Shown here: piece by piece, positions 2,934-18,637 of the stretch
Layout of the letters: the number at the start of each line of letters is the position of its first letter
Numbering within the stretch: position 1 is the stretch's first letter
Source of the DNA: Streptomyces sp. P3
GTDB taxonomy: Bacteria > Actinomycetota > Actinomycetes > Streptomycetales > Streptomycetaceae
Direction of reading: 5' to 3'
Assembly (NCBI RefSeq): GCF_003032475.1
Contig: NZ_CP028369.1
Coordinates: 2,046,001 to 2,110,000, forward strand
Length of the DNA stretch: 64,000 bases
The notes under the pieces: generated by a model
Database searches by the model: none
The model's input: only the letters and a program-made list of their open reading frames with translations
What the model was told of the DNA's origin: nothing
Translations under genes and position numbers: made by a program

Positions 2934-3176
2934 TCAGTGGTCGGCCAGACGCCAGCCCTGAAGCCCCGGCCGGGACAGGATGTCGGCGGCCATCCGAGTG
3001 GCTTCGGACGTGGTGGTTCCGGGCGGGGCCGTGATCCGGAGGCGGGCCAGGTCGCCCTGGAACTCGCCGACCTCGGCATGCCAGCCCTCCGGGAGGAGAG
3101 CCACAAACCGGATCACCGCGGTCTCTGGTGGTGCCCCGGACGGACCGGTGATCGACACCTGATGGGAGAAGCTCAT
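2934..3176 (-). CDS. small protein at the distal end of the RiPP operon
   Basis: An 80-residue soluble protein beginning MSFSHQVSITGPSG and ending GLQGWRLADH. No family is recognised. It has no signal peptide or membrane helix, and its alternating hydrophobic/polar pattern suggests a small alpha/beta fold. It lies 140 bp beyond the tiny membrane protein, in the same orientation, and is the last gene before the parS pair. A ribosome site is not obvious in the preceding bases. Position and co-orientation suggest an accessory or self-protection role in peptide production, but that is inference only. Confidence 0.6.
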   Translation of the reverse strand: MSFSHQVSITGPSGAPPETAVIRFVALLPEGWHAEVGEFQGDLARLRITAPPGTTTSEATRMAADILSRPGLQGWRLADH

Positions 3177-3209
3177 GGACGGCTCCGCATGACGAAGTGA
3201 AAGGAGGGT

Positions 3210-3235
3210 GGTGGGGCAGGCTGCCGTCCCCCACC
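3210..3235 (-). terminator. stem-loop between the two small operon-end genes
   Basis: GGTGGGG (3210-3216) pairs with CCCCACC (3229-3235), with an inner CAG/CTG pairing. It is a strong GC hairpin without a T-run, so it could attenuate rather than end transcription. Confidence 0.4.
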
Positions 3236-3316
3236 CCTCGGGGTCCGTGCGCCGACCGTGATCCGGGGGCGGCCACCTGGGCACGGCCGGCCCCGGACAA
3301 GGCCTCTGGGAATCGG

Positions 3317-3496
3317 TCAGTCGGACGAGCCGCCCTTGGCGAGCCGACCGACCAGCACGAGGATGCCGACGGCGAGCGCCGCGCCGACGCCGTAACGGAC
3401 GCTGTCGGAGGTGTCGCTGCTGATCAGCACCACCTCGACGCAGGCGAGCACGGCCAGAAGCGCGGCGAGGGTGGTACGGGAACGGGAGGCGGTCAT
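3317..3496 (-). CDS. 59-residue two-helix membrane protein
   Basis: An ATG-initiated frame preceded by a good ribosome site (GGAAGGAA, about 6 bases upstream). It encodes MTASRSRTTLAALLAVLAC followed by a second hydrophobic stretch GVGAALAVGILVLVGRL, then a short charged tail KGGSSD. Two transmembrane helices with a short connecting loop are predicted. Tiny two-helix proteins beside bacteriocin exporters are often immunity proteins. The gene lies between the ABC permease and the terminal 80-residue gene, so self-protection against the membrane-active peptide is a reasonable guess. No homology was recognised. Confidence 0.7.
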   Translation of the reverse strand: MTASRSRTTLAALLAVLACVEVVLISSDTSDSVRYGVGAALAVGILVLVGRLAKGGSSD

Positions 3497-3593
3497 CGGA
3501 GTTCCTTCCGGATGATGTGGATGGGGGTGTCTCGCTGTACGGGCGGATCTGAGCGGGTGATACGGGTGACGCGGTACTGCCGGCGATGCGGTG

Positions 3594-3745
3594 GTGCGGG
3601 TGGTGCTGTGGTGCGGGTGGTGCTGTGGTGTGGGTGACGCGATGGCGTGGGGGCACGGCGGCGTGGGTGGCGCGGTGGCGTGGGTGGCGCGGTGGCGTGG
3701 GTGGCGCGGTGGCGTGGGTGGCGAGGTGGCATGGGTGGCGCCAGG
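3594..3745. repeat. 17-bp tandem repeat array
   Basis: Nine consecutive units of about 17 bp. Copies at 3594-3610 and 3611-3627 read GTGCGGGTGGTGCTGTG. Copies at 3661-3677, 3678-3694 and 3695-3711 are identical to each other (GCGTGGGTGGCGCGGTG), and two diverged copies run to 3745. The period is not a multiple of 3, so the array is non-coding. The same unit family occurs between the precursor genes (11893-11953, 12766-12794). It fills the gap between the permease and the small membrane protein. Confidence 0.9.
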
Positions 3746-3783
3746 GCCTCGGCCACCCGACTCCCCGTCAGTCCGTCAGTCCG

Positions 3784-5046
3784 TCAGTCCGTCAGCTTCA
3801 TGGCCTGGCGGAACGAGAGCTTGCGGTCGGTCTGCAGGAGCGCCCGGCGGTACACCCGGCTGCTCGCCCCGACGATGAGCACCGCGGCGGCGATCGACAG
3901 GCCGAGCGCGGCGGCCGGCTCCCACCAGGCGGTCTCTCCCGCCAGGACGCGGGCCGGCATGGTGACGGTCGAGGTCAGCGGGATGAAGGAGAGGATCTCG
4001 CGCACATTGCCGGACACCGTCACGCCGACGATGAACACCAGCGCGGTGATCGCGTTCACCGGCGTGGTGGTGGACTGGATGTCCTCGCTGCGGGTGGCGA
4101 GCGCACCGGCCGCGGCGAACAGGCAGGCCAGGACGGCAATGCCCACGACGTAGAAGACGAGGAACCAGCCCAGTCCCGAGCTGATGTCGGCGAGGAAGTC
4201 CTGCTCGCCCGTGGCCACCAGGCCGCCGACGCCGACCAGGCAGAACAGTGCCATCTGGGCGAGCGCCAGCAGCGTGGAACCGACGATCTTGCCGACGAGC
4301 AGCGACCGAAGGGGCACGGAGCTGGCGATGAGCTCGACGATGCGGTTCTGCTTCTCCTCCACGACGCTGGTCGCCAGCGCCGCGCCGAGCAGGACAGCAG
4401 CCAGATAGAAGAGGAAGCCGAAGAAGTACGTCGTCATCTGGACCGCGCCCTCGGGCGTCTTGTCGGCCGACAGCAGGACGTGCTTGACCTCCGCCCCCTG
4501 GCTGAGGGCCGTCAGGCTGGTGCCGGCGGCCTTCGCGTTCTCCGCGAGGGCGTTCGACTGCACGGCGGCGCCGATCCAGGTGGCGGCGATGTCGTTCTGA
4601 CCGGTGTCGCCGAGCAGGACCCAGCGGCCGCCTTCGGACAGGAGCCCGGCCTCGGCGTCACCGGACCGCACGGCCTCACGGACCTGATCGGCGGACGACT
4701 CCTGCCGGACCGTGATCTCGACGTCCTGGTCCGCCCGGACGGCCAGTTGCTCGGCCTGGCCGGCGATCCGGCCGGCCTGCTGGTCGGCCACCGCGACCGT
4801 GATCTTGCCCATCGAGTCGGCCAGGTAGAGCTGCAGCCCGATCGCGCCCACGATCAGGGCGAGGGTGACCAGCGTCGACAGCAGGAAGCCGCGGTTGGTG
4901 AGCTTCACCGAGATCTCGCGGGCGGCGACGATCCGCCAGGCGGACGCGGTGGCCGCACGGGTCGGGGTACCGGAAGCCGCGGGCGTGCCCTGCGGATCGG
5001 GCGATGTCCCGGACCGGTGCGCGGGGTTCGAGGTCACGGTGCTCAT
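3784..5046 (-). CDS. ABC-2 type export permease (NatB-like)
   Basis: A 420-residue integral membrane protein. The N-terminal cytosolic stretch is followed by a first membrane helix (RGFLLSTLVTLALIVGAIG), a large extracytoplasmic domain of ~170 residues, then five or six helices in the C-terminal half, including VVEEKQNRIVELIASSVP. This is the NatB/ABC-2 efflux layout. Its start overlaps the stop of the ATPase gene by 4 bases (ATGA), so the two form one exporter. The stop codon sits in an 8-bp repeat (unit GTCAGTCC, ~3765-3795). Co-orientation and a short gap to the YcaO gene suggest it exports the modified peptide or confers immunity. It may instead be an older resident transporter that the cluster joined. 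Confidence 0.85.
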   Translation of the reverse strand: MSTVTSNPAHRSGTSPDPQGTPAASGTPTRAATASAWRIVAAREISVKLTNRGFLLSTLVTLALIVGAIGLQLYLADSMGKITVAVADQQAGRIAGQAEQLAVRADQDVEITVRQESSADQVREAVRSGDAEAGLLSEGGRWVLLGDTGQNDIAATWIGAAVQSNALAENAKAAGTSLTALSQGAEVKHVLLSADKTPEGAVQMTTYFFGFLFYLAAVLLGAALATSVVEEKQNRIVELIASSVPLRSLLVGKIVGSTLLALAQMALFCLVGVGGLVATGEQDFLADISSGLGWFLVFYVVGIAVLACLFAAAGALATRSEDIQSTTTPVNAITALVFIVGVTVSGNVREILSFIPLTSTVTMPARVLAGETAWWEPAAALGLSIAAAVLIVGASSRVYRRALLQTDRKLSFRQAMKLTD

Positions 5047-5927
5047 GCGGAAGTCATCTCCCGGTAGACGTCGGCGATGCTGGGAACGACAGGGGTGAAG
5101 GCGTGGACGGGTCCGCGGCGCAGGGCCTCCGTCAGGAGCGCGCCGGGATCGGCGTCGGCGGCGAGCCCGACACGCGCTCCGTCGGGCAGCTCCTCGACGT
5201 CGGTCACGCCGGGGACGTCGCCGGCCCAGCCGGCCGGCGCACCGGTGACCAGGTGGTACCGGAGCTTGTCGCGGTGCCGGAGCTCGTCCGCGGTGCCCTT
5301 GCCGACGACATGACCGGTGGCCATGATCACCAGGTCGTCGCAGAGCCGCTCGACCAGGTCGAGCTGGTGGGAGGAGAACAGTACGGGGATGCCCGCGGCG
5401 GCGTACTCGCGCAGCAGCTCGGCCATCGTGTCGACGGCGTGCGGGTCGAGCCCGGAGAAGGGTTCGTCGAGGACGAGCAGCTTGGGGGAGCCGAGCAGGG
5501 CGGCCGCGATCTGCACACGCTGCTGGTTACCCAGGGACAACGACTCCAGCCGTGCCTGGCTCTTCTCCGCGAGACCGAGGCGGTCGAGCAGTTCGAGGAT
5601 GTGCCTGCGGGCGTCGGCGGCACTCTGGCCGCGGAGCCGGGCCAGATAGACGAGCTGGCTGAGGACCGTCTGCTTCGGGTAGAGGCCCCGCTCCTCCGGC
5701 ATGTAGCCGAAGTCCCTGCGGTCGGCGGCCGTGACGGGGACGCCGTCCCAGCGGATCTCGCCGCCGTTCGCGGCCAGTACGCCCATGATCATGCGCATGG
5801 TGGTGGTCTTGCCCGCGCCGTTACCGCCGACGAATCCGGTCAACCGGCCTCTGGACACCCGGAAGGACACCCGGTCGACGGCACGGTGATCGCCGAAGTC
5901 TCGTACGAGTTCTTCCAGTTCCAACAT
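5043..5927 (-). CDS. ABC transporter ATPase (NatA-like)
   Basis: A 294-residue nucleotide-binding subunit. Walker A is GGNGAGKTTT (~residues 34-43), the signature is LSLGNQQR (~130), and Walker B is LLVLDEPFSGLD (~150), followed by the H-loop SSHQLD. The ~80-residue C-terminal extension is typical of ABC-2 exporters. It partners the overlapping permease downstream. It begins 73 bp after the YcaO stop on the same strand, so it is probably in the RiPP transcript. In lantibiotic systems such pairs act in export or self-immunity; which applies here cannot be read from sequence. Confidence 0.9.
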   Translation of the reverse strand: MLELEELVRDFGDHRAVDRVSFRVSRGRLTGFVGGNGAGKTTTMRMIMGVLAANGGEIRWDGVPVTAADRRDFGYMPEERGLYPKQTVLSQLVYLARLRGQSAADARRHILELLDRLGLAEKSQARLESLSLGNQQRVQIAAALLGSPKLLVLDEPFSGLDPHAVDTMAELLREYAAAGIPVLFSSHQLDLVERLCDDLVIMATGHVVGKGTADELRHRDKLRYHLVTGAPAGWAGDVPGVTDVEELPDGARVGLAADADPGALLTEALRRGPVHAFTPVVPSIADVYREMTSA

Positions 5928-6000
5928 CTGTGTCTTCTCTCAGCTCGGTTGAACGGTTGCTCTGGTGGGGGGAATCCAGCGGCGGCGGACCGCCGTCGGG

Positions 6001-7350
6001 TCAGGGCAGCGGGTGCGGCGCCGCTTCACGCGGGTCGTCCAGCCCGGCGGCGCAGCCGGTGCGCTCGGGCGCCGACGCCAGACGGGGCAGGTGCCAGCTC
6101 CACCGGTGCGTCTCGTCCATCCGCAGGCTCTGGTAGCCGGGCGCCAGCACCTTGACGACATGCCAGCCCATGGCGGCGACCGCCCGCGGGAGGCGCGACG
6201 TGAGGTCCACGGTCAGAAGACCCGCGCCGTCGGCGGTGAGGGCCCGCCGGATCTCCTCCGCCCCGAGGTCCCGCGCGGGCGAGGGAGCCGGCAGCGGGTC
6301 CGGCTCCCGGAAACCGGCGACCCAGTCGCGCACGCTCTCGTAAGCGGGGCGGGTCAGCATGTGGCTGAGCCGGTCGTGCTCCGTCACGATCGGGGCGACG
6401 CGCCCGGTCTCACCCCGGCCGCGCAGCGCCCGCAGCGCGGCCCGTACCTGCCACGCCTCCTGGAACGCCTTGGCGGCGGCCTCGGCCGGCCGGGGCGACG
6501 CCTTCATGCCGACGGCGGCCAGGGCGCCCGGACCCTCCGGATCGATCAGGAAGCCGGTCATGCACCAGAGCCCGGGCACGGCGGTGGGAATGCGGGCGAG
6601 CACGGGGGTCAGCCCCTCCGCGCGGGCCCGTGCCCACATCGCCCGGAGCGCGGTGTCCGCGGGCGACGGGACGTACGTCGGCAGACGCAGTCGGCGGCCC
6701 CAGGCGACGGTGAGGGCGTCCCGTTCCGTCACCTCGATCATCGCCGCGGCGAGAGCGGTCTCGTGGCTCGCGCCGGCCGCCGCCCCGGACGGGCTCGGAT
6801 CGAACAGGTCGGCCCGGCGCGCGGGCCAGTCGACGAGGTCCGCGGGGACCAGGACGGGCCCATCGGTGTCCAGGTCGCGGGCCTCGTACCAGGACAGGGC
6901 GGCCGTCTCGGCGTCCGGGTGCGACAGGGCGTGGTCCGGGTGGTGGGCGTACAGCGTCGTGGCGGCGGCTGCCAGGTCGGCGGCGGAGCCGAAGCGGGCG
7001 GGGTGGGCGGCCGAGGGGTGCAGGGCACGCCGCTCGACGGCCTCGCCCGCTCCGCGCAGCAGCGCGTCGACCCGGGACGCGCCGCTGGCCCCGGCGAACC
7101 GGGCGGACAGCGGGAGGTCGAGGACGTCGGCGCCCGGCCCGGCGGGGGCCGAGGCGGTGACACCCGCGCGAGCGGCCCCCGCACCCGCGGAGCCCGCACG
7201 AGCGGGGGAGCCGACGATTGCCTCGAACCCCTCCACCGGATGGAGTTCGACCGCGCTGCTCCACAGCGGATCGCCGTCGTGCGGCGGTGTGACCGCGTAC
7301 CGCAGGGCGATGCCCGACGCCGGGTCGAGGGTGGTCGGAATGTCGATCAC
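6001..7350 (-). CDS. YcaO-family ATP-dependent peptide backbone-modifying enzyme
   Basis: A 449-residue stand-alone YcaO protein. YcaO enzymes phosphorylate a peptide backbone amide to make azolines, thioamides or amidines. The ATP-site motifs are intact: SGASRVDALLRGAGEAVER (~90-107), SGAAAGASHETAL with MIEVTERDA (~188-212), and KAFQEAWQVR (~295-304). The protein ends in a Pro-rich PHPLP, the C-terminus style of active YcaO cyclodehydratases. Its start overlaps the LanKC stop by 4 bases, so translation is coupled. No ThiF/Ocin-type E1 partner and no TfuA protein is in the window, and no precursor has Cys, so thiazoles are excluded. Oxazoline/methyloxazoline from Ser/Thr, thioamide or amidine remain. 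YcaO is not part of the minimal daptide set as I know it. Confidence 0.88.
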   Translation of the reverse strand: MIDIPTTLDPASGIALRYAVTPPHDGDPLWSSAVELHPVEGFEAIVGSPARAGSAGAGAARAGVTASAPAGPGADVLDLPLSARFAGASGASRVDALLRGAGEAVERRALHPSAAHPARFGSAADLAAAATTLYAHHPDHALSHPDAETAALSWYEARDLDTDGPVLVPADLVDWPARRADLFDPSPSGAAAGASHETALAAAMIEVTERDALTVAWGRRLRLPTYVPSPADTALRAMWARARAEGLTPVLARIPTAVPGLWCMTGFLIDPEGPGALAAVGMKASPRPAEAAAKAFQEAWQVRAALRALRGRGETGRVAPIVTEHDRLSHMLTRPAYESVRDWVAGFREPDPLPAPSPARDLGAEEIRRALTADGAGLLTVDLTSRLPRAVAAMGWHVVKVLAPGYQSLRMDETHRWSWHLPRLASAPERTGCAAGLDDPREAAPHPLP

Positions 7351-9857
7351 CGTCGCACTCCGGCGGCCGCGGGGGCGAGGAAGGACAGGGCCGGAGCGCC
7401 GTCCCGCAGGGCGGCGAGGGCCAGCAGGACTCCGGCCGAACCCGTACCCAGGTCGGTGGAGAGGCGGTAGCCGTAGTTGCCGAGGAAGTCGACGCGGCCG
7501 GGCTCGGCGGCTATCGCCTCCCAGCCGAGGGCGTCCAGGTGGAAACGCAGGACGTCCCGCTCGACCTCGCTGCCGCCGTCCTCGAGGGCGAGGAGCTCAC
7601 CGCTCCGGCCGTGCAGGAGGCCGCACGAGGTGGCGAAGCCGCCACGCCGCAGGGTCCGCAGCCGGTCCACGGCGGCACGTATCCGTTCGTCGTCGGGGGT
7701 GTGCCGCAGTGCGGCGCGCAGGGCGATCAGGATGCCCGCCGAGCCTTCGAGTCCGGCGCTGAGGAAGCGGTCGTCGAAGTCGTCGCCCCCGATCCGCTCC
7801 AGTTCGGCGTGGAGTTCGGCCAGGGCCCGCTCCAACAGGTCGGTGCGGCCGGTGTGTTCGTACAGGCGCAGCAGCAGGAGAGCGCGGCCGCAGCGACCGT
7901 GCAGCAGTCCCACCCGCTGGGGCGCCGGGGTGTCGGGCAGCCGGTCGGCGAGTTCGAGCGCCTGGCGCAGACGCCGGTCGTCGCCGCGCCGGGCGGCCAG
8001 GTGCAGCGCGGTCAGGCCGAGGCCGGAGAGGCCGGTCGCCAGGGTGGACCCCACGTTGGCGTCGCAGCCGGCGAAGGCGCGGTCCATGACCGCGTCGGCG
8101 GCGTCGGGATGACCGAGCTCCTCCAGGGTGTACGCGACGCCTGCGAGGCCGGTGAGGAAGCCAGGGCCGTCGCCGGTGACCCGCTCGGCCTGGTCGAGGA
8201 ACCACCGGACGTGTTCGGCGGGCGCCTCGGCGCCGGCGCGGTGCAGCGCCCAGAGCACGCCCGCCGCCCCGTACGCGAAGGTCACGCCACCGTCGTCGAC
8301 CATGAACTGCGAGACGTCGCCCGGGTAGAGGCGGTCGGTCCGCTCGGGGGTGGCAGCCTCGACGATGGAGCCGGCGATGTCCGCGATCAGGTTCCCGGTC
8401 TTCTCCCCGGCGGCGGGCCAGGGCACGCCGTACTCCGTCCGCGCGCCCAGGACGTCGTCGCCGAGGCCGCGCTCGATCTGCCGGACGAAGGACTCGGGGA
8501 GGGGGAAGTCACGGGCGGCCACGTCGATCAGGGTGCGGATCTTCTCGGTGCCCCACGGCACGACGTGCGGCATGGGGACGAACATGGTCAGCCGGAGCAC
8601 GTCGAGCGCGAACAGGTCGACGTCGGGGCCCCGGAGGTGGTCGGGGGCCCGGAAGCCGAGGGAGCCCATGGCCTGCGCGCACATCTCCTCGGCGGGTGTG
8701 GCGGTCTCCATGTCGATGAAGGCGACGGTGTCGTCGGGGCGGACGAGGACGTTGCCCGGGTGCAGGTCGCCGAAGACGACCCCGCGCTCGTGCATGGCGG
8801 TCACGCCCTCGGCGACCTGGTCGAGGATGTGCAGCGTCCAGGCCGTGTACTCCGCCCGCGCCCGTGCCGTGTTGTCGGTGGTGCCGTAGGGGTGACGCAG
8901 GCGGACGAGCTCCGTCAGCGGAGTGCCGTCGACGTAGTCGCGCGCCAGGAAGAGGTGTTCGTTGCCCTTGCGCACGTCCCGCAGGGTGGGCACGGACGGG
9001 AGGCCGGAGAGCCGGGACAGCGCCCAGTGCTCGCGCTCGAGGCGGGTGACGGCGTCGTCGCCGGCCGCGTCGAGGCCGGCGAGCGGGCGGGCCTCCTTGA
9101 GCAGGACCTCGGTTCCGTCGCGCTTGTCGACGGCGCGGTAGACGCCGCCTCCGTTGGAGAAGTGGAGGGCCTTGTAGACACGGAAGGGGAAGTCGGTGAG
9201 GGTGCCGCGGCGCCGTTCGTCGGCCGCCTCCTGCAGGAAGGAGGGGAGGGTGACCCATGCCGGGGGACGGAAGCCGGGGCGCCGCTCGTCGGGGACGAGT
9301 TCGCCGTCCGGCGCGGTGATCGCGGGTGCCAGGGTGCCATCCTTGAGGCGGGTGGTCTTCAGCACGAAGCCACCGTAACGCACGTACAACGGCCCCTGCT
9401 TCCAACGGAGATCGCTCAGCACGGACGGTGCGGGCGTCCCTCCGACGAGGTCGTCGAGGCCGTCCAGGGCAGTGCGCAGAGCCGCCTCGTCGACGGGGTA
9501 GACGGTGATGAACTTCCCGCTGGCGGTGCGGTCCCCGTACTTGCTGCCGCGCCGGCCGAGCGTCTCCAGGTCGGAGATGTACTTGAACATCAGCCCGTGC
9601 TCGACGCAGTACGGGACGACGGCGTCGAGGAGTTCGGCGGCGTTGCCGGGGGAGGCCGCGACGTGGATCTTCCAGCCCTGGTCGGGGATCCGGGAGTCCG
9701 GCGGTACGCAGACGGTCCATTCCCGTCCTCGGGTGGCGGTCCAGCCCTCGGGCAGGGTCCGGCCCTCGTGGAAGTCCGCGCCGGTGGATTCGGCGGCGGG
9801 GGCGTCGTAGAAGAGCGAGTCCGCGCGGCAGAAGTTGATGAACCGGGTGTCGAGCAC
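7347..9857 (-). CDS. class III lanthionine synthetase (LanKC-type), probable Ser/Thr dehydratase
   Basis: An 836-residue three-domain protein: N-terminal phospho-Ser/Thr lyase domain (~1-200, with GRRGSKYGDRTASGKF at 101-116), Ser/Thr kinase domain (~225-480: catalytic Lys in VLLK at 254, loop GDLHPGN at 363-369, metal Asp in FIDME at ~380), and LanC-like cyclase domain (~510-836). The cyclase lacks the Cys/Cys-His zinc ligands of LanC and class IV enzymes; where CHG would be it reads GLLHGRCG (~650) and CGLLHG (~745). That makes it class III. It should phosphorylate and dehydrate Ser/Thr to Dha/Dhb. With no Cys in any precursor the cyclase has no thiol to add. GTG start with GGAGA upstream, 13 bp after the protease stop. 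Confidence 0.9.
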   Translation of the reverse strand: MLDTRFINFCRADSLFYDAPAAESTGADFHEGRTLPEGWTATRGREWTVCVPPDSRIPDQGWKIHVAASPGNAAELLDAVVPYCVEHGLMFKYISDLETLGRRGSKYGDRTASGKFITVYPVDEAALRTALDGLDDLVGGTPAPSVLSDLRWKQGPLYVRYGGFVLKTTRLKDGTLAPAITAPDGELVPDERRPGFRPPAWVTLPSFLQEAADERRRGTLTDFPFRVYKALHFSNGGGVYRAVDKRDGTEVLLKEARPLAGLDAAGDDAVTRLEREHWALSRLSGLPSVPTLRDVRKGNEHLFLARDYVDGTPLTELVRLRHPYGTTDNTARARAEYTAWTLHILDQVAEGVTAMHERGVVFGDLHPGNVLVRPDDTVAFIDMETATPAEEMCAQAMGSLGFRAPDHLRGPDVDLFALDVLRLTMFVPMPHVVPWGTEKIRTLIDVAARDFPLPESFVRQIERGLGDDVLGARTEYGVPWPAAGEKTGNLIADIAGSIVEAATPERTDRLYPGDVSQFMVDDGGVTFAYGAAGVLWALHRAGAEAPAEHVRWFLDQAERVTGDGPGFLTGLAGVAYTLEELGHPDAADAVMDRAFAGCDANVGSTLATGLSGLGLTALHLAARRGDDRRLRQALELADRLPDTPAPQRVGLLHGRCGRALLLLRLYEHTGRTDLLERALAELHAELERIGGDDFDDRFLSAGLEGSAGILIALRAALRHTPDDERIRAAVDRLRTLRRGGFATSCGLLHGRSGELLALEDGGSEVERDVLRFHLDALGWEAIAAEPGRVDFLGNYGYRLSTDLGTGSAGVLLALAALRDGAPALSFLAPAAAGVRR

Positions 9858-9870
9858 GGTGTCTCCAGAG

Positions 9871-11511: not shown

Positions 11512-11566
11512 TGGCGTTTCCTTTGCGGGACGGCGGCGGGGAGTGGGAGAGCGCGCGGCACCCTTT

Positions 11567-11697: not shown

Positions 11698-11850
11698 TCA
11701 GGTGAGGGTGATCGAGGTGGCGACGGAGGCGCTGATGGCCGTGCCGATGGAGACGCCGGTCCAGAAGCCGGGGGCCTCGAGGGTCTCGAGCTCCTGCATC
11801 TCCAGCTCGACGAGCTCGGCGTTCTCGATGGCGCCCAGGTTCTCAGCCAT
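11698..11850 (-). CDS. daptide-type precursor peptide 1
   Basis: A 50-residue peptide; ribosome site GAGAGGA about 8 bases before the ATG. The leader starts MAENLGAIENAELVELEMQ and continues ELETLEAPG, acidic and Leu-rich like its three sisters. The core region after PG reads FWTGVSIGTAISASVATSI then TLT. It has nine Ser/Thr, no Cys, no charged residue and a C-terminal Thr, the residue the daptide enzymes convert to the dimethylated diamine. It is the most diverged copy in the leader N-terminus (no NPGTVENFDN segment) and the only one with Phe-Trp at the start of the core. Confidence 0.88.
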   Translation of the reverse strand: MAENLGAIENAELVELEMQELETLEAPGFWTGVSIGTAISASVATSITLT

Positions 11851-11892
11851 GATGGTGTCCTCTCAGTGGTGTTCTACGGGTTGGTGTGAGTG

Positions 11893-11953
11893 GTGCGGGT
11901 GGCGCCTTTGGTGCGGGTGGCGCCTTGGTACAGGTGGTGCGGGTGGTGCCCTT
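11893..11953. repeat. 17-bp repeat copies between precursor genes 1 and 2
   Basis: Three copies of the operon's 17-bp family: GTGCGGGTGGCGCCTTT (11893-11909), GTGCGGGTGGCGCCTTG (11911-11927) and GTGCGGGTGGTGCCCTT (11937-11953), followed by looser GGTGGTGCGG-type sequence to ~12005. Non-coding. Confidence 0.85.
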
Positions 11954-12007
11954 TGGACCCGGTGGTGCGGGGGGCACCGGTAGCGCCGGTAGCGCAGGTG
12001 GCGCGGC

Positions 12008-12166
12008 TCAGGTGAGGGTGACCGAGACGCCGACCGAGACGCCGACGGAGAAGGCGGTGCTGATGGTGCCCCAGCCCGGAGCCTCGAGCGCCTCCAGCTC
12101 CTGCATCTCCAGCTCGACCAGGTCGGCGTTGTCGAAGTTCTCGACGGTGCCCGGGTTCTCGTTCAT
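12008..12166 (-). CDS. daptide-type precursor peptide 2
   Basis: A 52-residue peptide; ribosome site GAGAGG with 8-base spacing. It starts MNENPGTVENFDNADLVELE, continues MQELEALEAPG, then core WGTISTAFSVGVSVGVSV ending TLT. No Cys; the C-terminal residue is Thr. It differs from precursor 3 at only five positions (2, 37, 38, 41, 49), and even the upstream GAGAGGCAAC context matches, so the two are a recent gene duplication. The core alternates small/aliphatic with Ser/Thr residues, as expected of a membrane-active helical peptide with many dehydration sites. Confidence 0.9.
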   Translation of the reverse strand: MNENPGTVENFDNADLVELEMQELEALEAPGWGTISTAFSVGVSVGVSVTLT

Positions 12167-12232
12167 GTCGGTTGCCTCTCTCGGCTGTCGCAGCGGGTGT
12201 CGGGTGGGTGGTGCCGTGTGGTGCGGAACGGA

Positions 12233-12391
12233 TCAGGTCAGCGTGATCGAGACACCGACCGAGACACCGGCGGAGAAGACGGCGCTGATGGTGCCCCAGC
12301 CCGGAGCCTCGAGCGCCTCCAGCTCCTGCATCTCCAGCTCGACCAGGTCGGCGTTGTCGAAGTTCTCGACGGTGCCCGGGTTCTCGCTCAT
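12233..12391 (-). CDS. daptide-type precursor peptide 3
   Basis: A 52-residue paralogue of precursor 2, starting MSENPGTVENFDNADLVELE with core WGTISAVFSAGVSVGVSI ending TLT. Ribosome site GAGAGGCAACTGAC just before the ATG. No Cys. It lies 66 bp upstream of precursor 2 in the transcript. The shared leader block ELVELEMQELE or DLVELEMQELE is the likely docking site for the recognition protein. It also resembles the Leu-rich leader helix of class III lanthipeptides, so one leader could serve both the LanKC and the daptide enzymes (inference). Confidence 0.9.
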   Translation of the reverse strand: MSENPGTVENFDNADLVELEMQELEALEAPGWGTISAVFSAGVSVGVSITLT

Positions 12392-12460
12392 GTCAGTTGC
12401 CTCTCTCGGCTGTTGCGGCGGATGTGCTGCGTGCTGACCCGGGGTTCCGGGGTTCCCCCG

Positions 12461-12528
12461 GCTGCCGCGCGGTCTACGGGGCCGTGCGGCAGCCGTCGGG
12501 GGGTGTCCGGCCGTGCTCGGGGCACGGC
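12461..12528 (-). terminator. two stem-loops between precursor genes 3 and 4
   Basis: GCTGCCGCGCGG (12461-12472) pairs with CCGTGCGGCAGC (12482-12493; one wobble/mismatch, 9-nt loop). GCCGTGC (12510-12516) pairs with GCACGGC (12522-12528; 5-nt loop). No T-run follows. They may protect or attenuate the mRNA between precursor 4 and the 1-3 group. Confidence 0.55.
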
Positions 12529-12559
12529 ACGGTGGATCGGACGGCCGGAGCCGGCTCGA

Positions 12560-12715
12560 TCAGGTGAGGCTCCAGGCGACGGAGACGATCGAGATGCCGA
12601 CGCTGACGCCGACGCTGGTGGCCCAGCCCGGGGCCTGCACGGCCTCGAGCTCCTGCATCTCCAGCTCGGTGCCGAGCTCCTGCAGCTCCTGCTCGACCAG
12701 CGTGTGCTTCGCCAT
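12560..12715 (-). CDS. daptide-type precursor peptide 4
   Basis: A 51-residue peptide with the strongest ribosome site of the set (GAGGAGAACGTC before ATG). It starts MAKHTLVEQELQELGTELEM, continues QELEAVQAPG, then core WATSVGVSVGISIVSVAWS ending LT. No Cys; C-terminal Thr. It is the first precursor after the enzyme genes mpaD-mpaM-mpaC-mpaB and the most diverged in both leader and core. Its core has two Trp and six Ser/Thr, fewer dehydration sites than precursor 1. A separate peptide product is likely, possibly part of a multi-component set. Confidence 0.88.
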   Translation of the reverse strand: MAKHTLVEQELQELGTELEMQELEAVQAPGWATSVGVSVGISIVSVAWSLT

Positions 12716-12739
12716 GACGTTCTCCTCGTGTTCGGTGCG

Positions 12740-12794
12740 CCCCGGCTTCTCCGGGGTGCTGTCCGGTGCGGGTGGTGCGTGGTGCGGGTGGTGC
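12740..12794. repeat. stem-loop and 17-bp repeat copies upstream of precursor 4
   Basis: GTGCGGGTGGTGC occurs at 12766-12778 and 12782-12794, the same unit as in the array at 3594-3745. Next to it CCCCGG (12740-12745) and CCGGGG (12751-12756) form a 6-bp hairpin with a 5-nt loop in the leader between mpaB and precursor 4. Confidence 0.7.
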
Positions 12795-12816
12795 GGGTGC
12801 TCCTCCCGGTCGGCGC

Positions 12817-14016
12817 TCAGGCCGCCGGGAGGGGTTCGGGGGAGCCGGCCGGGAAGGCGGTCGGCTCGGTGGCCTCGGCGAGGAGCGCGACGACGTCGTC
12901 GGCGCTCAACCCGGCGAGGGTGGGAAGTCCGGCGCCCCAGGCGCGCACGCTGCGCAGGGCGACGTGGTGGCGCAGGTGCGGGGCGAGGTGCACGGTGCGG
13001 TCGATCCGCCAGCGGCGCATCAGCTGCTCGAGGCCGTCGTCGGGCCGTGACGCGAGCCACGGGGCCCGCTGCCCCAGGCGCTCCCAGAGGCGTTGGACGC
13101 GGTCGGCGCTGCCGAAGCGGGTGTCCCCTCGCAGGGCCTGCCGCCACACGATGGGCCACAGGGCGGCGACCGCGCGCATCTTGGCCAGGCCCAGCGTGGT
13201 GGAGAGCTCGTTGGCGAGGGCCCAGCACTTCACCGCGTAGGGGCTGCGGCCGACGTTGATGGCTCCGCGCTGGCTCTCGGCGCTGAGCCGGGCGACCCGC
13301 AGCCGCTCCGGTGCGGGGGCCGGCAGGCCGGCGGCGAGGCGCCGGGCCAGGGCGTCGCCGGCCGTCAGCAGTTCGCCCGCCAACTCCTCTACGGCGGCGT
13401 CCTGTTCCGGAAGGTCGAGGGTGTCGCTGCTGTACGGGATGACGGTCCTGAAGATCGCTTCGAGGACGCCGTCCAGGACGAGCGGCCCCGGAAGGGTCTC
13501 GGTGGCCTCGGGCACCCGGAGCGCGGCGCGGGGGCGCAGGCACTCCCCCATGGCGATGCGTTTGCCGTCCTGGTGCGGGAAGCAGGCCACGGGCCCCGCC
13601 TCGCTGCCGGTGCCCAGGGTGGTGGGGACCGCGAGGACCTCGGCGTGCTCTCCCTCTGAGAGCGGGAGCGCCACGAGGCCGCTGCGCTGCGCGGAGGTCA
13701 GGTAGCGCAGGAGTCCGGGGCGACGGCCGACGGCGGCCGAGAGCTTCGCGAAGTCGAGGGTGCTGCCCCCGCCGACGCCGACGACCAGCTCACCGGGAGA
13801 GAACCGGGAGGCGTGCGCCTCCACGGCCCGCATCCCACCGTCCGCCGGGGTGACCGCCACGGTGGGCGTGAACCCGGCGCGGACGATCTCGGCGGTGACG
13901 TTCCGGGTGACGGTGTGGCCGGCCACGGCCGGGTCGGCCAGGACGGTCACGCCGGTGGGGCGAAGTTCCCGCAGCAGTCCGGGAATCCGGTCGTAGGCGT
14001 CGAGAGAGACGGGCAT
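12817..14016 (-). CDS. mpaB: iron-ADH-fold oxidoreductase, daptide MpaB-like oxidative decarboxylase
   Basis: A 399-residue member of the iron-containing alcohol dehydrogenase/dehydroquinate synthase fold, with NAD motif GVGGGSTLD (~80-88) and PTTLGTGSEA (~131-140). In daptide biosynthesis this enzyme oxidises the C-terminal Thr, with decarboxylation, to an aminoketone. By eye, the metal-ligand positions are not conserved: the DxxxH pair reads D182-GVL-E186, and the two later His positions read Asn (~269) and Lys (~279). It may therefore work without the usual divalent metal. It starts 4 bp after the mpaC stop with GAGGAG upstream. The precursor array follows about 100 bp downstream. Confidence 0.85.
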   Translation of the reverse strand: MPVSLDAYDRIPGLLRELRPTGVTVLADPAVAGHTVTRNVTAEIVRAGFTPTVAVTPADGGMRAVEAHASRFSPGELVVGVGGGSTLDFAKLSAAVGRRPGLLRYLTSAQRSGLVALPLSEGEHAEVLAVPTTLGTGSEAGPVACFPHQDGKRIAMGECLRPRAALRVPEATETLPGPLVLDGVLEAIFRTVIPYSSDTLDLPEQDAAVEELAGELLTAGDALARRLAAGLPAPAPERLRVARLSAESQRGAINVGRSPYAVKCWALANELSTTLGLAKMRAVAALWPIVWRQALRGDTRFGSADRVQRLWERLGQRAPWLASRPDDGLEQLMRRWRIDRTVHLAPHLRHHVALRSVRAWGAGLPTLAGLSADDVVALLAEATEPTAFPAGSPEPLPAA

Positions 14017-14020
14017 GGGG

Positions 14021-15286
14021 TCAGCTCCTCGCGGCCAGGGAGGTCGCCGGCAGCAGGCTGTCGAGGCCCTCTTCGACACAGGTCATGAGCTCGGCGACCT
14101 CGGCGCGGCGGTACGTCAGGGAGGGCACGAGCTGGATGCCGGAGGGACCGGGGTGCACCAGGGCGCCCGCGTGACGGATCCGGGTGATGAGGTCGGCGAC
14201 GTCCGTTCCGGCCAGGGCGCGGCCGTCGGGGTGGGTCAGATGCAGGGTGCGGAAGCAGCCGACGCCGGTGGCGTGCGTGGCGAGCGGGTGCCGTTCGACC
14301 AGTTCCGCCAGCCCCTGCTGGAGCCACGCGGCGACGTCGCGGCCCGCGTTCACCGCGTCGAGGCGCTCCATCTCGGCGATCGTGGCGCTGATCGCGGCGC
14401 AGGCGAGGGCGGTCGCGCCCTGGGTCTCGGCGTGGGCGAACACCGTGTCGTGCTCGACGAGGGCCCGGGTCACCCGGTGGGACATCACCAGGGCGGCGGC
14501 GGGGCAGGCTCCGTTGGTCAGGCCCTTGGAGGTGACGAGCACGTCGGGCAGGCCGGGCCAGCTCTCGGAGGCGAAGTAGCTTCCGGTTCGGCCGAAGCCG
14601 GTGGCGACCTCGTCGGCGACCAGGAGGAAGCCGTACTCGTCGCGCAGACGGCCCAGTTCGGCCACGAACGATTCGTCGAGCGGGACGGTCCCGGTGCCGA
14701 CGACGGGTTCCACCACGACGGCGGCGACCTGGCCGCCGAGGGCGGTCATCAGCCGGCCCAGCTCGGCCGTGTCGTTCGGGGTGACGTGGCGGATCAGCCG
14801 CTGGTCGACTCCGTAGACCCGTTGCCCCAGGTCCTCCCCGGTCAGGGCGAAGCCGCCGAAGGTCAGTCCGTGGAAGCTGCCCCGCAGGGCGACCACCAGG
14901 TTCCGTCCGGGCCGGCCCTGTACGGCGTGGTGGATCCGCGCCAGTTTCATGACCGCGTCGTTGGCGACGCCGCCGCCGGTGGAGAAGAGCACCCGGGCGT
15001 AGTGGTCGGGCCCGCAGACCCGCAGCAGGTCCTCGGCGGCGCGGCGGGCGTAACTGTTCTCGAAGCGGAAGGCCCCGAGGTAGGAGGCGTGCGCGGCGGC
15101 TTCGGCGACGGCCTCGGCGATCCTCGCGTTGCCGTAGCCGAGGTTCACGTTCCACAGCCCGCTGTCGGCGTCGAGGGCGGTGCTGCCGTCCGCGAAGGTG
15201 ACGCGGTGTCCGGCCGCGCCGACGGCGCAGAGGCTGTCGTCGCCGTGGCTGGAGGGCGGTATGAGGTAGGGCCAGAGCGCGGTCAT
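14021..15286 (-). CDS. mpaC: class III PLP aminotransferase, daptide MpaC-like
   Basis: A 421-residue fold-type I aminotransferase of the omega-transaminase group. Visible are FSTGGGVANDAVMK (~101-114), the PLP-contacting Asp in VADEVATGFGRTG (~223-235) and the Schiff-base Lys in VTSKGLTNG (K254). In the daptide pathway the homologue transaminates the C-terminal aminoketone left by MpaB, giving a 1,2-propanediamine. The start overlaps the methyltransferase stop by 4 bases (ATGA), and mpaB follows after 4 bases, so the three are translationally coupled, consistent with consecutive steps. Confidence 0.88.
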   Translation of the reverse strand: MTALWPYLIPPSSHGDDSLCAVGAAGHRVTFADGSTALDADSGLWNVNLGYGNARIAEAVAEAAAHASYLGAFRFENSYARRAAEDLLRVCGPDHYARVLFSTGGGVANDAVMKLARIHHAVQGRPGRNLVVALRGSFHGLTFGGFALTGEDLGQRVYGVDQRLIRHVTPNDTAELGRLMTALGGQVAAVVVEPVVGTGTVPLDESFVAELGRLRDEYGFLLVADEVATGFGRTGSYFASESWPGLPDVLVTSKGLTNGACPAAALVMSHRVTRALVEHDTVFAHAETQGATALACAAISATIAEMERLDAVNAGRDVAAWLQQGLAELVERHPLATHATGVGCFRTLHLTHPDGRALAGTDVADLITRIRHAGALVHPGPSGIQLVPSLTYRRAEVAELMTCVEEGLDSLLPATSLAARS

Positions 15287-16107
15287 CGGGAGGCTTCCGT
15301 GGTCAGGAGTGTCACGCGGTGACGCTCGTCGGGCGGCGAGAGGAGCCGGCGGGAGGTGACCGTCAGGCCGGACGCGGCGAGTTCCTCCTCCAGGCGGGGC
15401 AGGTCGAGGACGGCCACGCGGTCCGTGCAGACGGTGACGGGGCTGTCGTCCTGCGGCGGGTCGGCGGGGAAGAGGGTGACGGTGCGGCTGTCGGCGCCGG
15501 CGGGCCAGTGCTCGTACAGCTCGTAGACGGTGCCGCCGGATCCGGTGGCCCGGACGACCGTCTCGTCGGGGCCGTCGTCGTCGCCCCGTTCCAGGACGGT
15601 CAGCAGGAACCGGCCGCCGTCGGCCAGGTGTGCCAGGACGCTGCGGTACAGACCCGCGCGGCCGTCCTCGTCCAGGAGCGAGAGCGAGGTGGTGCCGAGC
15701 AGGATGTGCGGGAAGCTCCGGCCCAGGTCGAACCGGGACATGTCGCCCCGCACCACGGTGCAGCGGGCCCGCATCGACGCCGGGGCCCGGTCCAGTTGGG
15801 TCCTCAGCAGCGCCAGCATGTCGGTGGACAGGTCGAGGGCGGTGACCTCCCGGCCGGTGGCGAGCAGCGGCAGGGTGAACCGTCCCGAGCCGGCCGCGAG
15901 GTCGAGCAGGGGGCCGGGCGTCGTCCGCACGGCGGTCAGCAGGGCCCGGGTCTCCGGGTCGTCGTAGGTGGCGAGGTCGTGGTAGACCGGGGCGCCGAGG
16001 GCGTCGTACAGGCCGCAGACGCGAACTCTGTCGCCGAGCTCCGCCGTCCGGCGGGCGGCGAGGACGCCCCCTTCGGTCGTCATGAGGGGCATGGCCGGGG
16101 CGCTCAT
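15283..16107 (-). CDS. mpaM: SAM-dependent N-methyltransferase, daptide MpaM-like
   Basis: A 274-residue class I methyltransferase: motif I LLDLAAGSGRFTLPLL (~68-83), motif II VTALDLSTDML (~91), and motif IV RGDMSRFDLG (~120). In daptides the homologue dimethylates the new terminal amine, giving the positively charged (S)-N2,N2-dimethyl-1,2-propanediamine end. It overlaps both neighbours by 4 bases, so the order D-M-C-B reads as one translational unit. The assignment rests on this context as much as on sequence, since class I methyltransferases are diverse. Confidence 0.85.
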   Translation of the reverse strand: MSAPAMPLMTTEGGVLAARRTAELGDRVRVCGLYDALGAPVYHDLATYDDPETRALLTAVRTTPGPLLDLAAGSGRFTLPLLATGREVTALDLSTDMLALLRTQLDRAPASMRARCTVVRGDMSRFDLGRSFPHILLGTTSLSLLDEDGRAGLYRSVLAHLADGGRFLLTVLERGDDDGPDETVVRATGSGGTVYELYEHWPAGADSRTVTLFPADPPQDDSPVTVCTDRVAVLDLPRLEEELAASGLTVTSRRLLSPPDERHRVTLLTTEASR

Positions 16108-17138
16108 CGGGCGGCCGCCGGGACGCGCACCGCTACGGGCAGCTCCAGGCCGTGCGAGGCGAGCAGGTCGGCCAGCTGGTCCACGTGGCCGGCGGGGACG
16201 AGGTCGCCCACCGCTCCGGAGGTGGCGAGCAGGCACTCCAGGGTCCGGGCGGCCCGCCGGTCGACGGCGAACAACCTGCTGCCGGCCACGATGTAGGCGT
16301 CCTCGTCCCCGTACAGCACGATCGGCAGCGAGGGGTCCGCCAGGTCGTCGCCTGCCGCGGCGAGCCCGGGCGTCAGCCGGGAACCGAACCCGGAGACCTT
16401 CAGGCCGGTGGCTCCGCGTGCCATGAGGCTGCGCAGTGCGGCGACCGCCGCGAGATAGCGGGCCAGGAACGGGCGGCTGCGCAGCGCTTCGGCGCGAATC
16501 CGCGCCGGCAGTGCCGCGTCCAGCGCGGCGGCGCCGTTGCCGACCCGGGCGAAACGCCCGGCGAGGGCGTCGAGGCCGTCGTCGACCGTGCCGAGCACCG
16601 CTCCCGTGGGGCTGGTGGACACCCGCCCGTCCCGGTCGGCGTACAGGCGCAGGGCGGGTCCGTCCGCCGGGTCGTCAGCGCCGCTCAGGGCGGCCGGGTC
16701 GGCCAGCAGCACCGAGGAGGTGAGGAGGAACTCGGGGAAGACGCCCTCGGTGAGCGCACGGTCGGCGTCGGCGAGGAAGACCTCGAAGTCGTGTCGGTCG
16801 AAGACGCGGACGACGGTCGGCCCGAAGACGGTCATGAAAGGGCTGGCGGCGTAGGCGTGGGTCTGCAGGAAGAAGTCCTGGCCGTTGGAGAACTCGTCGC
16901 CGGGCTCCGTGAGGCTGCCCTGGTAGCCGACGGCGCAGGCGAGATCGCGGGTGCCGTCGCCGGGTGCCAGGAGGAGGGTGCGGGGGCCGACGAGTCCGGC
17001 GGCCGTGACGGCGGGAACGTGCGCCGCGTCGGCCAGGACGAGCGTGCCGACGCCTGCGCCGGGGGGCCCGGCCAGCGGGGAGGCGGTGGCCCAGGAGATG
17101 AGGTGCTGCTTCAGACGCCCACGATCAGTCATGTCCAT
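16104..17138 (-). CDS. mpaD: daptide RiPP-recognition protein, MpaD-like
   Basis: A 344-residue protein with no catalytic motif that I recognise. The C-terminal ~80 residues (SRLFAVDRRAARTLECLLA onward, to HVDQLADLLASHGLELP) look like a RiPP recognition element: beta-hairpin then winged helix. The N-terminal part contains a Rossmann-like stretch (GTLVLADAAHVPAV) that may be scaffold only. Daptide clusters encode such a protein next to the aminotransferase and methyltransferase. It probably presents the leader peptide to MpaB/C/M. AAAGGA lies 9 bases before the chosen ATG; a second ATG two codons later is possible. The stop overlaps the methyltransferase start. Confidence 0.75.
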   Translation of the reverse strand: MDMTDRGRLKQHLISWATASPLAGPPGAGVGTLVLADAAHVPAVTAAGLVGPRTLLLAPGDGTRDLACAVGYQGSLTEPGDEFSNGQDFFLQTHAYAASPFMTVFGPTVVRVFDRHDFEVFLADADRALTEGVFPEFLLTSSVLLADPAALSGADDPADGPALRLYADRDGRVSTSPTGAVLGTVDDGLDALAGRFARVGNGAAALDAALPARIRAEALRSRPFLARYLAAVAALRSLMARGATGLKVSGFGSRLTPGLAAAGDDLADPSLPIVLYGDEDAYIVAGSRLFAVDRRAARTLECLLATSGAVGDLVPAGHVDQLADLLASHGLELPVAVRVPAAAR

Positions 17139-17303
17139 GCCAGATGATCCTTTACTGGTCTGCTTCCCCTTCTGCCTCGGAGCAGCAGGGAATCGGGGTG
17201 CGGTGCGAGGGTGCCGGTCACGACACGACCGGGCGACGGCGGCAGCCGGCGACGAGCGCTTGCCGGCGGACGGCCGGCCGGGCAGCCGACGGCGAACGGT
17301 CGG

Positions 17304-18284
17304 TCAGTGCGGCGCCGAGACGGACCGCAGGATCGCCGACAGGTCCGCGAGCGACTCCTGGGCGCCGAAGAGCTTGCACACGGCGGTGGTGTTCAGGACG
17401 ATCTCGTCCACTCCCACGTCTTCGTAGACCCGGAGCGCCTTGACCACCTGCGGCAGGTCACCGCCCGCGAACGCACCGGTCTCCACGACACCGCGCGCCA
17501 CGTCCTCGAGCCGCCCGGAGCCCACGTCGACCCCCGCCCGGCCGAGCATGTCCAGGTAGTGCGGGGCCTGCATGTGCGCCGCGTTTCCGGCCAGCGCCAG
17601 CCGTGCGGGCCCGGCGCCCTCCCGCCCCTCCTTCTCCAGTCCCGTCGGGACCATGGCGACGATCCGGGGCAGTGACGTCCGCCCCGCGCGTTCGGCGCCC
17701 TCGGCCACCGCGGGCAGGATGACGTCCCGCAGGTATCCGGGCGGCGTCAGCCACGTGATCACCACGTCGGCCACCTCGCCCGCCAGCCGGGCCATCGCCG
17801 GCCGCAGCACTCCCAGACCCACGTCGACCCGGGGCGCCGCGACCGGGGCCAACTGGCCCCGGAAGGTCAGCTGCGGACCGTCCATGACGACCGTCTCGCC
17901 GTCGAGCAGACGGCGGACCGCCGTCACGTACTGCCGTGCCACCTGGAGCGGTTTCCCGTACGGGGCTCCGAGGATGTTCTCCTGGAAGGCCGTCGATCCC
18001 GGGCCGAAGCCCGCGATCACCGGTTCCCCGGTGGCCAGCGCCACGGACCGCGCCTGCAGGGCGGCCTCGTACGGGTGACGCAGAGGCATCAGCGTGACCC
18101 CGAAGCCGGTCGGGACCCGGAACCCGGCCCCGGCCAGACCGGTGAAGGTCTGATGAGGCTCCATCACCATGGCCTGTCCCTGCCAGAGGCGGGCCGCCCC
18201 GGTCCACCGGACGAGTCCGGCGAAGGGGAGAGCCTGCTCCAGACGGCGGGGGACACAGGGGAGGAGCACGGAGTAGTCGGTCAT
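17304..18284 (-). CDS. luciferase-like (probably F420-dependent) oxidoreductase
   Basis: A 326-residue TIM-barrel protein of the bacterial luciferase/F420 superfamily (e.g. the GFGPGSTAFQ segment ~95 and an internal LDGETV ~133). F420H2-dependent members in lanthipeptide clusters (LanJC/LexJ type) reduce dehydroalanine or dehydrobutyrine to D-Ala or D-Abu. Because the operon also has a LanKC dehydratase and Cys-free precursors, the same reduction is a good hypothesis here. It starts with ATG and GAGGAG 11 bases upstream. A 165-bp gap separates it from mpaD. Alternative: oxidation of another intermediate. The superfamily is certain; cofactor and substrate are not. Confidence 0.8.
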   Translation of the reverse strand: MTDYSVLLPCVPRRLEQALPFAGLVRWTGAARLWQGQAMVMEPHQTFTGLAGAGFRVPTGFGVTLMPLRHPYEAALQARSVALATGEPVIAGFGPGSTAFQENILGAPYGKPLQVARQYVTAVRRLLDGETVVMDGPQLTFRGQLAPVAAPRVDVGLGVLRPAMARLAGEVADVVITWLTPPGYLRDVILPAVAEGAERAGRTSLPRIVAMVPTGLEKEGREGAGPARLALAGNAAHMQAPHYLDMLGRAGVDVGSGRLEDVARGVVETGAFAGGDLPQVVKALRVYEDVGVDEIVLNTTAVCKLFGAQESLADLSAILRSVSAPH

Positions 18285-18337
18285 GGCTTCGGGTTCTCCT
18301 CGTCGTCGGGTCGGGTCTGGTCGGCCTCGGCCGCGGA

Positions 18338-18637
18338 CTACTGCCAGTCGTTGTTGTTCTTCGGCAGCGTCACGTCGGGCAGCAGACCGCCGAGGAGGTG
18401 GAGCAACCCGCCGAGGCCGGCGGCGGACGCCGCCCCGTTCCCGGTCCCGTGCGCCGTCTCGTTCCCGGTCCCGTGCGCCGCCACGGTCTCCGTCGCCGTC
18501 CGGCTCTGCGCCGGCTGCTCGGCGGCGGCGGCCGTTCCCTGGCCGGCCAGGGCGATCGTCACCGCGGTCAGCAGACCGGCGACGACGTGTCCACGACGAC
18601 GGGACGACAGCGCGCTGCGGGACGTGGAACGGTTCAC
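18338..18637 (-). CDS. small secreted protein, first gene of the RiPP operon
   Basis: A 99-residue protein starting with GTG; GAGGAG lies about 8 bases upstream. N-terminus MNRSTSRSALSSRRRGHVV is followed by a hydrophobic stretch AGLLTAVTIALAG ending GTAAAA, a clear Sec signal peptide with a probable cut after the Ala run. The mature part holds an imperfect internal repeat (AHGTGNE / AHGTGNG) and ends LLPDVTLPKNNNDWQ. No family is recognised. It lies 53 bp upstream of the luciferase-like gene, same strand, so it is likely in the operon. It could be a secreted accessory or protection factor, or unrelated. Confidence 0.7.
   Translation of the reverse strand: MNRSTSRSALSSRRRGHVVAGLLTAVTIALAGQGTAAAAEQPAQSRTATETVAAHGTGNETAHGTGNGAASAAGLGGLLHLLGGLLPDVTLPKNNNDWQ

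Follow-up and report, generated by a model that had tools for sequence, protein, structure and literature searches.

What is made by a run of daptide genes that also holds a LanKC synthetase, a YcaO protein and a luciferase-like oxidoreductase? The question is raised by positions 2934-18637 of a 64,000-nucleotide stretch of Streptomyces sp. P3 DNA (NZ_CP028369.1; hereafter the window), which a preliminary description took for a new, multiply modified class of ribosomally synthesized and post-translationally modified peptide (RiPP). Our analysis indicates that this gene run is very probably a daptide operon in a Streptomyces host, of the same type as tfDap of Thermobifida fusca. The observation in that description is confirmed and its interpretation is partly supported, but its claim of novelty is wrong: the cluster chemistry is already known, and the combination of LanKC and YcaO is recurrent among the loci sampled rather than the mark of a new class.

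The same gene set has been published for tfDap of T. fusca, which comprises five precursors, DapB, DapC, DapD, DapM and DapP, the transporter T1T2, the dehydratase DapKC, the luciferase-like DapJ and the YcaO protein DapY (PMC12338566). LanKC/LanJC pairs and YcaO proteins are described as secondary genes of daptide clusters, and the product of the sca cluster has five Ser residues converted to Ala, assigned as D-Ala by Marfey's method, alongside a dimethylated diamine end, Dmp (PMC10036551). The suggestion of D-residue formation as a possibility was right, and such a conversion is already published for a daptide. The two papers cover both the gene set and the activities, and the new-class reading was dropped.

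Gene content and predicted pathway

The operon genes all lie on the minus strand, from 18637 down to 2934, and are transcribed in the order Sec, LanJ, DapB, DapM, DapD, DapC, DapA1-A4, DapP, LanKC, YcaO, ATPase, permease, a 59-aa open reading frame (ORF) and Small; the regulator gene Reg diverges from them on the plus strand. The genes for biosynthesis and export, with the scores of their family models, are as follows.

17304-18284, minus strand: DapJ (LanJ), luciferase-like oxidoreductase, F420-type by family resemblance, predicted dehydroalanine reductase (PF00296, 75.3 bits, cut-off 27.9)
16104-17138, minus strand: DapB (MpaB), RRE-containing partner of the oxidative decarboxylase (NF041823, 353.5 bits, cut-off 150)
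15283-16107, minus strand: DapM (MpaM), N-methyltransferase, start at 16107 or 16092 (NF041820, 316.5 bits, cut-off 175)
14021-15286, minus strand: DapD (MpaD), class III aminotransferase (NF041821, 622.3 bits, cut-off 450)
12817-14016, minus strand: DapC (MpaC), oxidative decarboxylase of alcohol-dehydrogenase fold (NF041822, 471.9 bits, cut-off 300)
12560-12712, minus strand: DapA1 precursor, predicted core GWATSVGVSVGISIVSVAWSLT (NF041808, daptide_123, 31.3 bits, cut-off 25)
12233-12391, minus strand: DapA2 precursor, predicted core GWGTISAVFSAGVSVGVSITLT (NF041808, 32.2 bits)
12008-12166, minus strand: DapA3 precursor, predicted core GWGTISTAFSVGVSVGVSVTLT (NF041808, 35.9 bits)
11698-11850, minus strand: DapA4 precursor, predicted core GFWTGVSIGTAISASVATSITLT (NF041808, 34.7 bits)
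9871-11511, minus strand: DapP (MpaP), intramembrane metalloprotease (NF041824, 481.3 bits, cut-off 300)
7347-9857, minus strand: DapKC, class III LanKC with lyase, kinase and cyclase-like domains (NF038151, 845.7 bits, cut-off 575)
6001-7350, minus strand: DapY, YcaO protein with a PHPLP end (PF02624, 131.8 bits, cut-off 25.7)
5043-5927, minus strand: DapT1, ABC exporter ATPase (PF00005, 103.6 bits)
3784-5046, minus strand: DapT2, ABC-2 permease (PF12698, 139.6 bits)
3317-3496, minus strand: 59-aa hydrophobic ORF, encoding a putative small membrane protein

Most of what the preliminary description reported is borne out. The MpaB/C/M/D/P-like genes share one orientation and each exceeds its NCBIfam daptide cut-off, and LanKC, YcaO, the luciferase-like oxidoreductase, the ABC exporter and the small proteins are all present in the run. 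All four precursors are Cys-free, carry an ELE-type leader, score over the NF041808 cut-off and end in Thr preceded by Leu (11698-12712); the predicted cores are the sequences after the leader motif ELExxxxx. Its wording that the genes mostly overlap applies to DapB/DapM, DapM/DapD, LanKC/YcaO and T1/T2, each pair sharing 4 bases, and fails for the other gaps, which span 4-287 bases with the 59-aa ORF counted. The starts of Sec, LanJ, DapC and DapP were picked among alternatives. The assignment exceeds chance: across the 9.85-Mb genome NF041823 has a single match, which is over its cut-off, and 14 control genomes have no match.

What the DNA shows is which genes are present and that their motifs are intact; the chemistry and regulation set out for this cluster are predictions. 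By analogy with the published enzymes, DapB and DapC would oxidatively decarboxylate the C-terminal Thr, DapD would aminate the decarboxylated end, and DapM would methylate it. The YcaO protein would cyclise the mono-methylated amine with the carbonyl of the penultimate Leu, yielding a dimethylimidazoline; on an alternative branch it would lose to a second methylation, giving Dmp. In the core, LanKC may dehydrate Ser and perhaps some Thr, and the luciferase-like reductase may turn the dehydro residues into D-Ala (or D-2-aminobutyrate). DapP is expected to cleave after ELExxxxx, and the ABC pair to export the peptides. The most likely product, we suppose, is a set of peptides that lack Cys, have D-Ala in place of Ser and terminate in a dimethylimidazoline or Dmp.

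The 59-aa ORF is retained after the permease in four further clusters (G939, G361, G253 and G210; 78-42% identity) and has no Pfam family over cut-off; a role as exporter accessory or immunity factor is a guess. Plus-strand ORFs across the region are high-GC shadow frames and were not taken as genes. Outside the operon, a KptA/Tpt1 RNA 2'-phosphotransferase is encoded at 1732-2394 on the plus strand (PF01885, 170.9 bits), and a second F420-type luciferase-like oxidoreductase, probably unrelated, adjoins the cluster at 20101-21111 on the minus strand.

LanKC and YcaO across DapD loci

We collected DapD loci from one contig scan (52 loci) and from genome searches with the DapB family. At E 0.001, overlapping genome draws gave DapB-family matches in 3/41, 23/392, 4/396 (3 over cut-off), 22/394, 6/197 (4 over cut-off), 4/4 chosen by handle, 7/150 (5 over cut-off) and 1/200 genomes; some weak matches were left out of the collection. 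Loci whose DapD scores at least 300 bits to the present DapD were made non-redundant at 97% DapD identity, leaving 79 and dropping 7. A DapB match is missing in 8 of these 79, so not all of them are proven daptide clusters. One genome, G1338 (3.6 Mb), came from a family search around Nocardiopsis and carries the same gene set over two contigs with five precursors. In one of these, a 26-residue leader precedes a 21-residue core whose third residue is Trp, which fits the published description of TfDapA1. From the broken cluster, the precursor number and this match, we infer that G1338 is T. fusca.

LanKC is found in 57 of the 79 loci (56 by tblastn, and G1338 on its second contig), and YcaO without LanKC in 9. 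Both occur together in 22: 20 directly, plus G1338 and L045, in which a contig end truncates YcaO. Two loci that stop too early behind LanKC to rule YcaO out (L043 and G929) are YcaO-negative in the composition counts and excluded from the YcaO pair test. A LanJ match accompanies LanKC in 56/57 loci; the exception, G392a, stops near there at a contig end. Precursors were counted for 66/79 loci, with four distinct cores of G1338 entered by hand. The filter finds none in the other 13 (G162b, L044, L047, L048, L050, L052, L053, L054, L057, L059, L060, L082 and G1221), and a looser filter shows precursors in L044, L047, L048, L052 and L059. As a side observation, L047, L048, L052 and L059 (Amycolatopsis, Lentzea), with YcaO and no LanKC match, each have one Cys-containing precursor with a GGNCGGNVDP- or NCAGVDQKTCD-type core.

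The LanKC of the window exceeds its family cut-off and has all three domains (lyase, kinase and cyclase-like). Its residues K63, H65, K92, K115, R160, E255, D364, N369 and D382 are identical in all 56 LanKC sequences of the non-redundant loci, and K254 of the kinase is kept in 46 and replaced by R in 10; we take these positions to be the lyase and kinase residues. Beside it in the cluster lies an oxidoreductase of the LLM class (PF00296), as expected of a LanJC; its F420 use is predicted, the F420-family model TIGR03564 scoring 109.2 bits, under its cut-off of 234.25. We read LanKC as a putative dehydratase, because thioether cyclisation would serve no purpose on peptides that lack Cys, and LanJ as its presumed reductase partner.

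The composition of the cores is consistent with dehydration of Ser. The mean Ser fraction is 0.161 in 56 clusters with LanKC (minimum 0.077) and 0.039 in 10 clusters without it (maximum 0.111, so that the ranges overlap; Mann-Whitney p 1.6e-6). We do not call this association independent of ancestry, because LanKC presence changes only 3 times on the DapD tree.

Three features expected of DapY are found in the YcaO protein, namely the YcaO domain (PF02624), the PxPxP-type C-terminus PHPLP and a place inside the daptide operon. Among 29 YcaO sequences, the 20 from clusters with LanKC end in P-[HN]-PLP and the 9 from clusters without it in PHPLI. Published DapY turns a mono-methylated amine intermediate into a C-terminal 3,4-dimethylimidazoline, as shown for the enzymes of T. 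fusca and Streptomyces azureus; no obvious sequence trend accounts for which precursors become imidazolines, and the DapM/DapY branch point is called unresolved (PMC12338566). In our loci, the penultimate residue may offer a lead. With YcaO, penultimate Ala is found in 6/64 cores of clusters with LanKC and 0/8 of those without; where YcaO is missing, the counts are 52/81 and 2/10. The cluster-mean fractions are 0.08 with YcaO and 0.59 without, a trend not independent of ancestry: YcaO presence changes 6 times on the DapD tree, with 2 well-supported independent pairs and a sign test that is not significant. G1087, which has YcaO and two Ala-Thr ends, also speaks against any strict rule by which YcaO would determine the penultimate residue, and we gave up such a rule. 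The trend is nevertheless a testable lead on the branch point. A natural within-cluster test is offered by G210, L038, L039 and L045, each with one extra precursor ending VVVAT apart from those ending in LT.

The same branch point gives rise to the strongest alternative, in which the accessory genes are intact and most product carries a Dmp end because DapM outruns DapY. A precedent comes from the four azuritides, of which one carried a Dmp end and a second yielded some mono-methylated (Mmp) and Dmp forms as well (PMC12338566); all four cores here end in LT, and penultimate Ala is rare with YcaO (ancestry not separated), so that we regard a mostly Dmp-ended product as rather unlikely.

A new RiPP class, with the daptide end joined to lanthionine rings or to YcaO azoles or thioamides in the core, is highly improbable. 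The retained cyclase-like domain of LanKC and the PxPxP end that the YcaO protein shares with azoline formers would suit it. No precursor contains Cys, however, and hence no lanthionine or other thioether is expected; two cyclase positions drift among the daptide-locus LanKC proteins compared (H653 is H in 26/56, H749 in 20/56), and DapY action required an aminated C-terminus (PMC12338566).

That LanKC and YcaO serve another precursor while the daptide genes act alone deserves scarcely any credence: the 186-base DapA4-DapP gap could hold an internal promoter, but LanKC starts 13 bases after DapP and overlaps YcaO by 4 bases, core Ser content tracks LanKC presence, LanKC recurs in 57/79 DapD loci, and by eye no Cys-bearing LanA is seen among the 15 ORFs of at least 25 aa lying mostly outside genes. 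Apart from the 59-aa membrane protein, the minus-strand ORFs of this set are Arg-/Pro-rich shadow frames, one of which contains Small.

The regulator and the small proteins that occur with it

The more novel part of the locus is the association of Reg with small proteins, one of them predicted to be secreted, which looks undescribed; a literature search over titles and abstract beginnings, covering few subscription journals, gave no description of a Reg/Sec/Small module that we recognised. The elements are as follows.

18952-19950, plus strand: Reg, divergent transcription regulator with a C-terminal GerE (LuxR) helix-turn-helix (PF00196, 27.5 bits, cut-off 23.5)
18759-18770: palindrome GCAGC-TT-GCTGC, candidate operator of Reg by position and conservation
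18338-18637, minus strand: Sec, 99 aa, first gene of the run, with a signal-peptide-like N-terminus and the end NNNDWQ (start chosen by ribosome-site inspection)
2934-3176, minus strand: Small, 80 aa, predicted ferredoxin-like fold (AlphaFold2 pLDDT 89.6), co-occurring with Reg

A relative of Reg (L257) scores for a TrmB-like N-terminus (26.8 bits, cut-off 25.6). Reg adjoins LanJ in 19 non-redundant clusters, and a palindrome GCAGC-NN-RYTGC lies in 16 of these 19 gaps, a density of 1.34 per kb compared with 0.023 per kb over the remainder of 2.83 Mb; the motif was taken from an alignment of six gaps and widened after other gaps had been viewed. In the remaining 13 gaps it is present in 10, several of them close kin (G311/G124/G1005; G099b/G293/G272), and it is missing from those of G1065, G929 and G879. 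The copy in the window, GCAGCTTGCTGC, sits in the divergent promoter and is the only site of the pattern there; with 2 mismatches allowed, the window has 2 sites where shuffled sequence predicts 1.51, which is no excess. It is a candidate operator, and expression of the operon is probably controlled by Reg at this one promoter.

By our reading of the ORF list, 14/19 Reg-LanJ gaps encode a small signal-peptide protein with [DEN]W at or near the C-terminus, in tandem repeats in G210 and L036. There is no such ORF in G311, G124 and G1005 (gaps of 225-292 bases) and none by filter in G986; G099b has a weak profile match only, and the reverse-strand ORFs of G311 and G1005 are not counted. Profile matches to Small occur in 18 non-redundant clusters, each with Reg or (G253, G392a) with a contig end where Reg is expected. 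It occurs in 15 of the 19 Reg-adjacent clusters; for the remaining four (L034, L036, L038, L039) the sequence covered stops at the exporter.

Similar three-part units exist outside daptide clusters, in many of the loci L232-L299. A Reg search of 61 genomes at E 1e-8 gave matches in 55 and returned 30 loci, including that of the window and that of G013. The genomes of the other 28 (L232-L259) had earlier given no DapB match, except G1651 (L259), which was outside that search. A criterion for a Trp-containing secreted protein was set after these 28 loci had been viewed and before 40 further ones (L260-L299) were; it asks for 40-130 aa, Trp at position -2 and agreement with a crude signal-peptide rule. 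The 40 were hand-picked from the same Reg search to favour full-length matches and come from fewer genomes, so that they are not fully independent. Such a protein is present in 13/28 old loci, 9/40 new loci and 12/384 control 5-kb chunks. For new loci against controls, Fisher p is 3e-5, or 1.7e-4 for 8/40 without the doubtful L264; the controls are daptide-region DNA, without Bacillota and other distant loci, and not flanks of other regulators. In a further case, missed by the strict criterion, a small signal-peptide ORF beside the Reg homolog of L236 (1-528) ends ACWVNGWQEKPGT.

As a second partner, these loci often hold a protein of ~80-110 aa with an EH motif. Its profile matches 39/68 Reg loci and no daptide-region ORF of the same search, and it is present in 19/21 loci with the Trp protein; among the 20 EH loci that lack that protein, looser rules applied post hoc reveal ten more secreted ORFs of such type. 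The closest Reg relatives, L232-L234, carry daptide-type Small instead (E 2e-13 to 2e-15). The AlphaFold2 model of the EH protein (pLDDT 90.0) shares a β-α-β-β-α order with that of Small, and L266 matches both profiles (E 0.0026 and 1.7e-21). Profile-profile comparison gives a probability of 15.8% over 19 columns, and the two models have weak PDB fold matches (best E 8.9e-3 and 1.2e-3). Sequence homology between Small and the EH proteins is therefore no more than suggestive. Neither has a Pfam or NCBIfam match, Sec has sub-threshold matches only, and the named proteins that correspond to Small and to an EH protein (one from Catenulispora acidiphila) all carry the annotation hypothetical.

As in pheromone systems, a secreted precursor, by the crude signal-peptide rule, adjoins a regulator in a recurring unit. 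We tentatively raise the possibility, which we hold to be somewhat unlikely, that an undescribed actinomycete signalling module governs the operon, consisting of the TrmB/LuxR-type Reg, the ferredoxin-fold Small and a Sec-exported Trp-peptide signal. The candidate signal would be a Trp-containing C-terminal peptide such as NNNDWQ, with tandem NHDWG- or AGWQ-type repeats elsewhere. Alternatively, the Trp protein may be a secreted accessory, immunity or surface protein rather than a signal. If the regulatory reading is true, a synthetic peptide or Reg overexpression could switch on silent clusters of Streptomyces and relatives.

Comparison with known daptide clusters

The present cluster shares with tfDap (PMC12338566; published version PMC12670281) DapB, C, D, M, P, KC, J and Y, an exporter and several A genes. 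Against G1338, the inferred tfDap, the biosynthetic proteins are 44-73% identical, with DapY at 46% over 452 aligned positions, and the gene order agrees apart from the exporter. Reg, Sec and Small have no tblastn match in the G1338 stretches examined.

Some observations weigh against our main reading of the cluster. The exporter is unlike that of G1338: its ATPase is 37% identical and differently placed, its permease has no match there, and the pair, of a different type from that of tfDap, follows YcaO. This permease type is present in 10/79 DapD loci, and many other daptide clusters have an ATPase ~37% identical to the present one between the precursors and DapP. D96 of LanKC is not conserved (D in 6/56), and the association of core Ser with LanKC is not separated from ancestry, the 3 changes of LanKC state on the DapD tree giving one well-supported independent pair. 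The likely orthology of DapY to the characterised enzymes is drawn from family, motif and context.

We nevertheless regard the cluster as a fully clustered further example of the tfDap-type pathway and an alternative source of DapY, DapKC and DapJ; it may itself figure in the published list of 1,034 clusters. The sca cluster of Streptomyces capuensis shares LanKC/LanJC and the daptide genes and yields a product with D-Ala and Dmp; the passages of PMC10036551 that describe it make no mention of a YcaO. The saDap cluster of S. azureus, conversely, has the daptide genes and YcaO with dimethylimidazoline (Diz) ends, without LanKC and the reductase (PMC12338566). The close relatives in S. kronopolitis (L033), S. 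omiyaensis (L037), S. spiroverticillatus (L036) and S. abyssomicinicus (L034) combine LanKC, LanJ and YcaO with the same type of exporter as the present cluster, and differ from it slightly in the number and sequence of their precursors.

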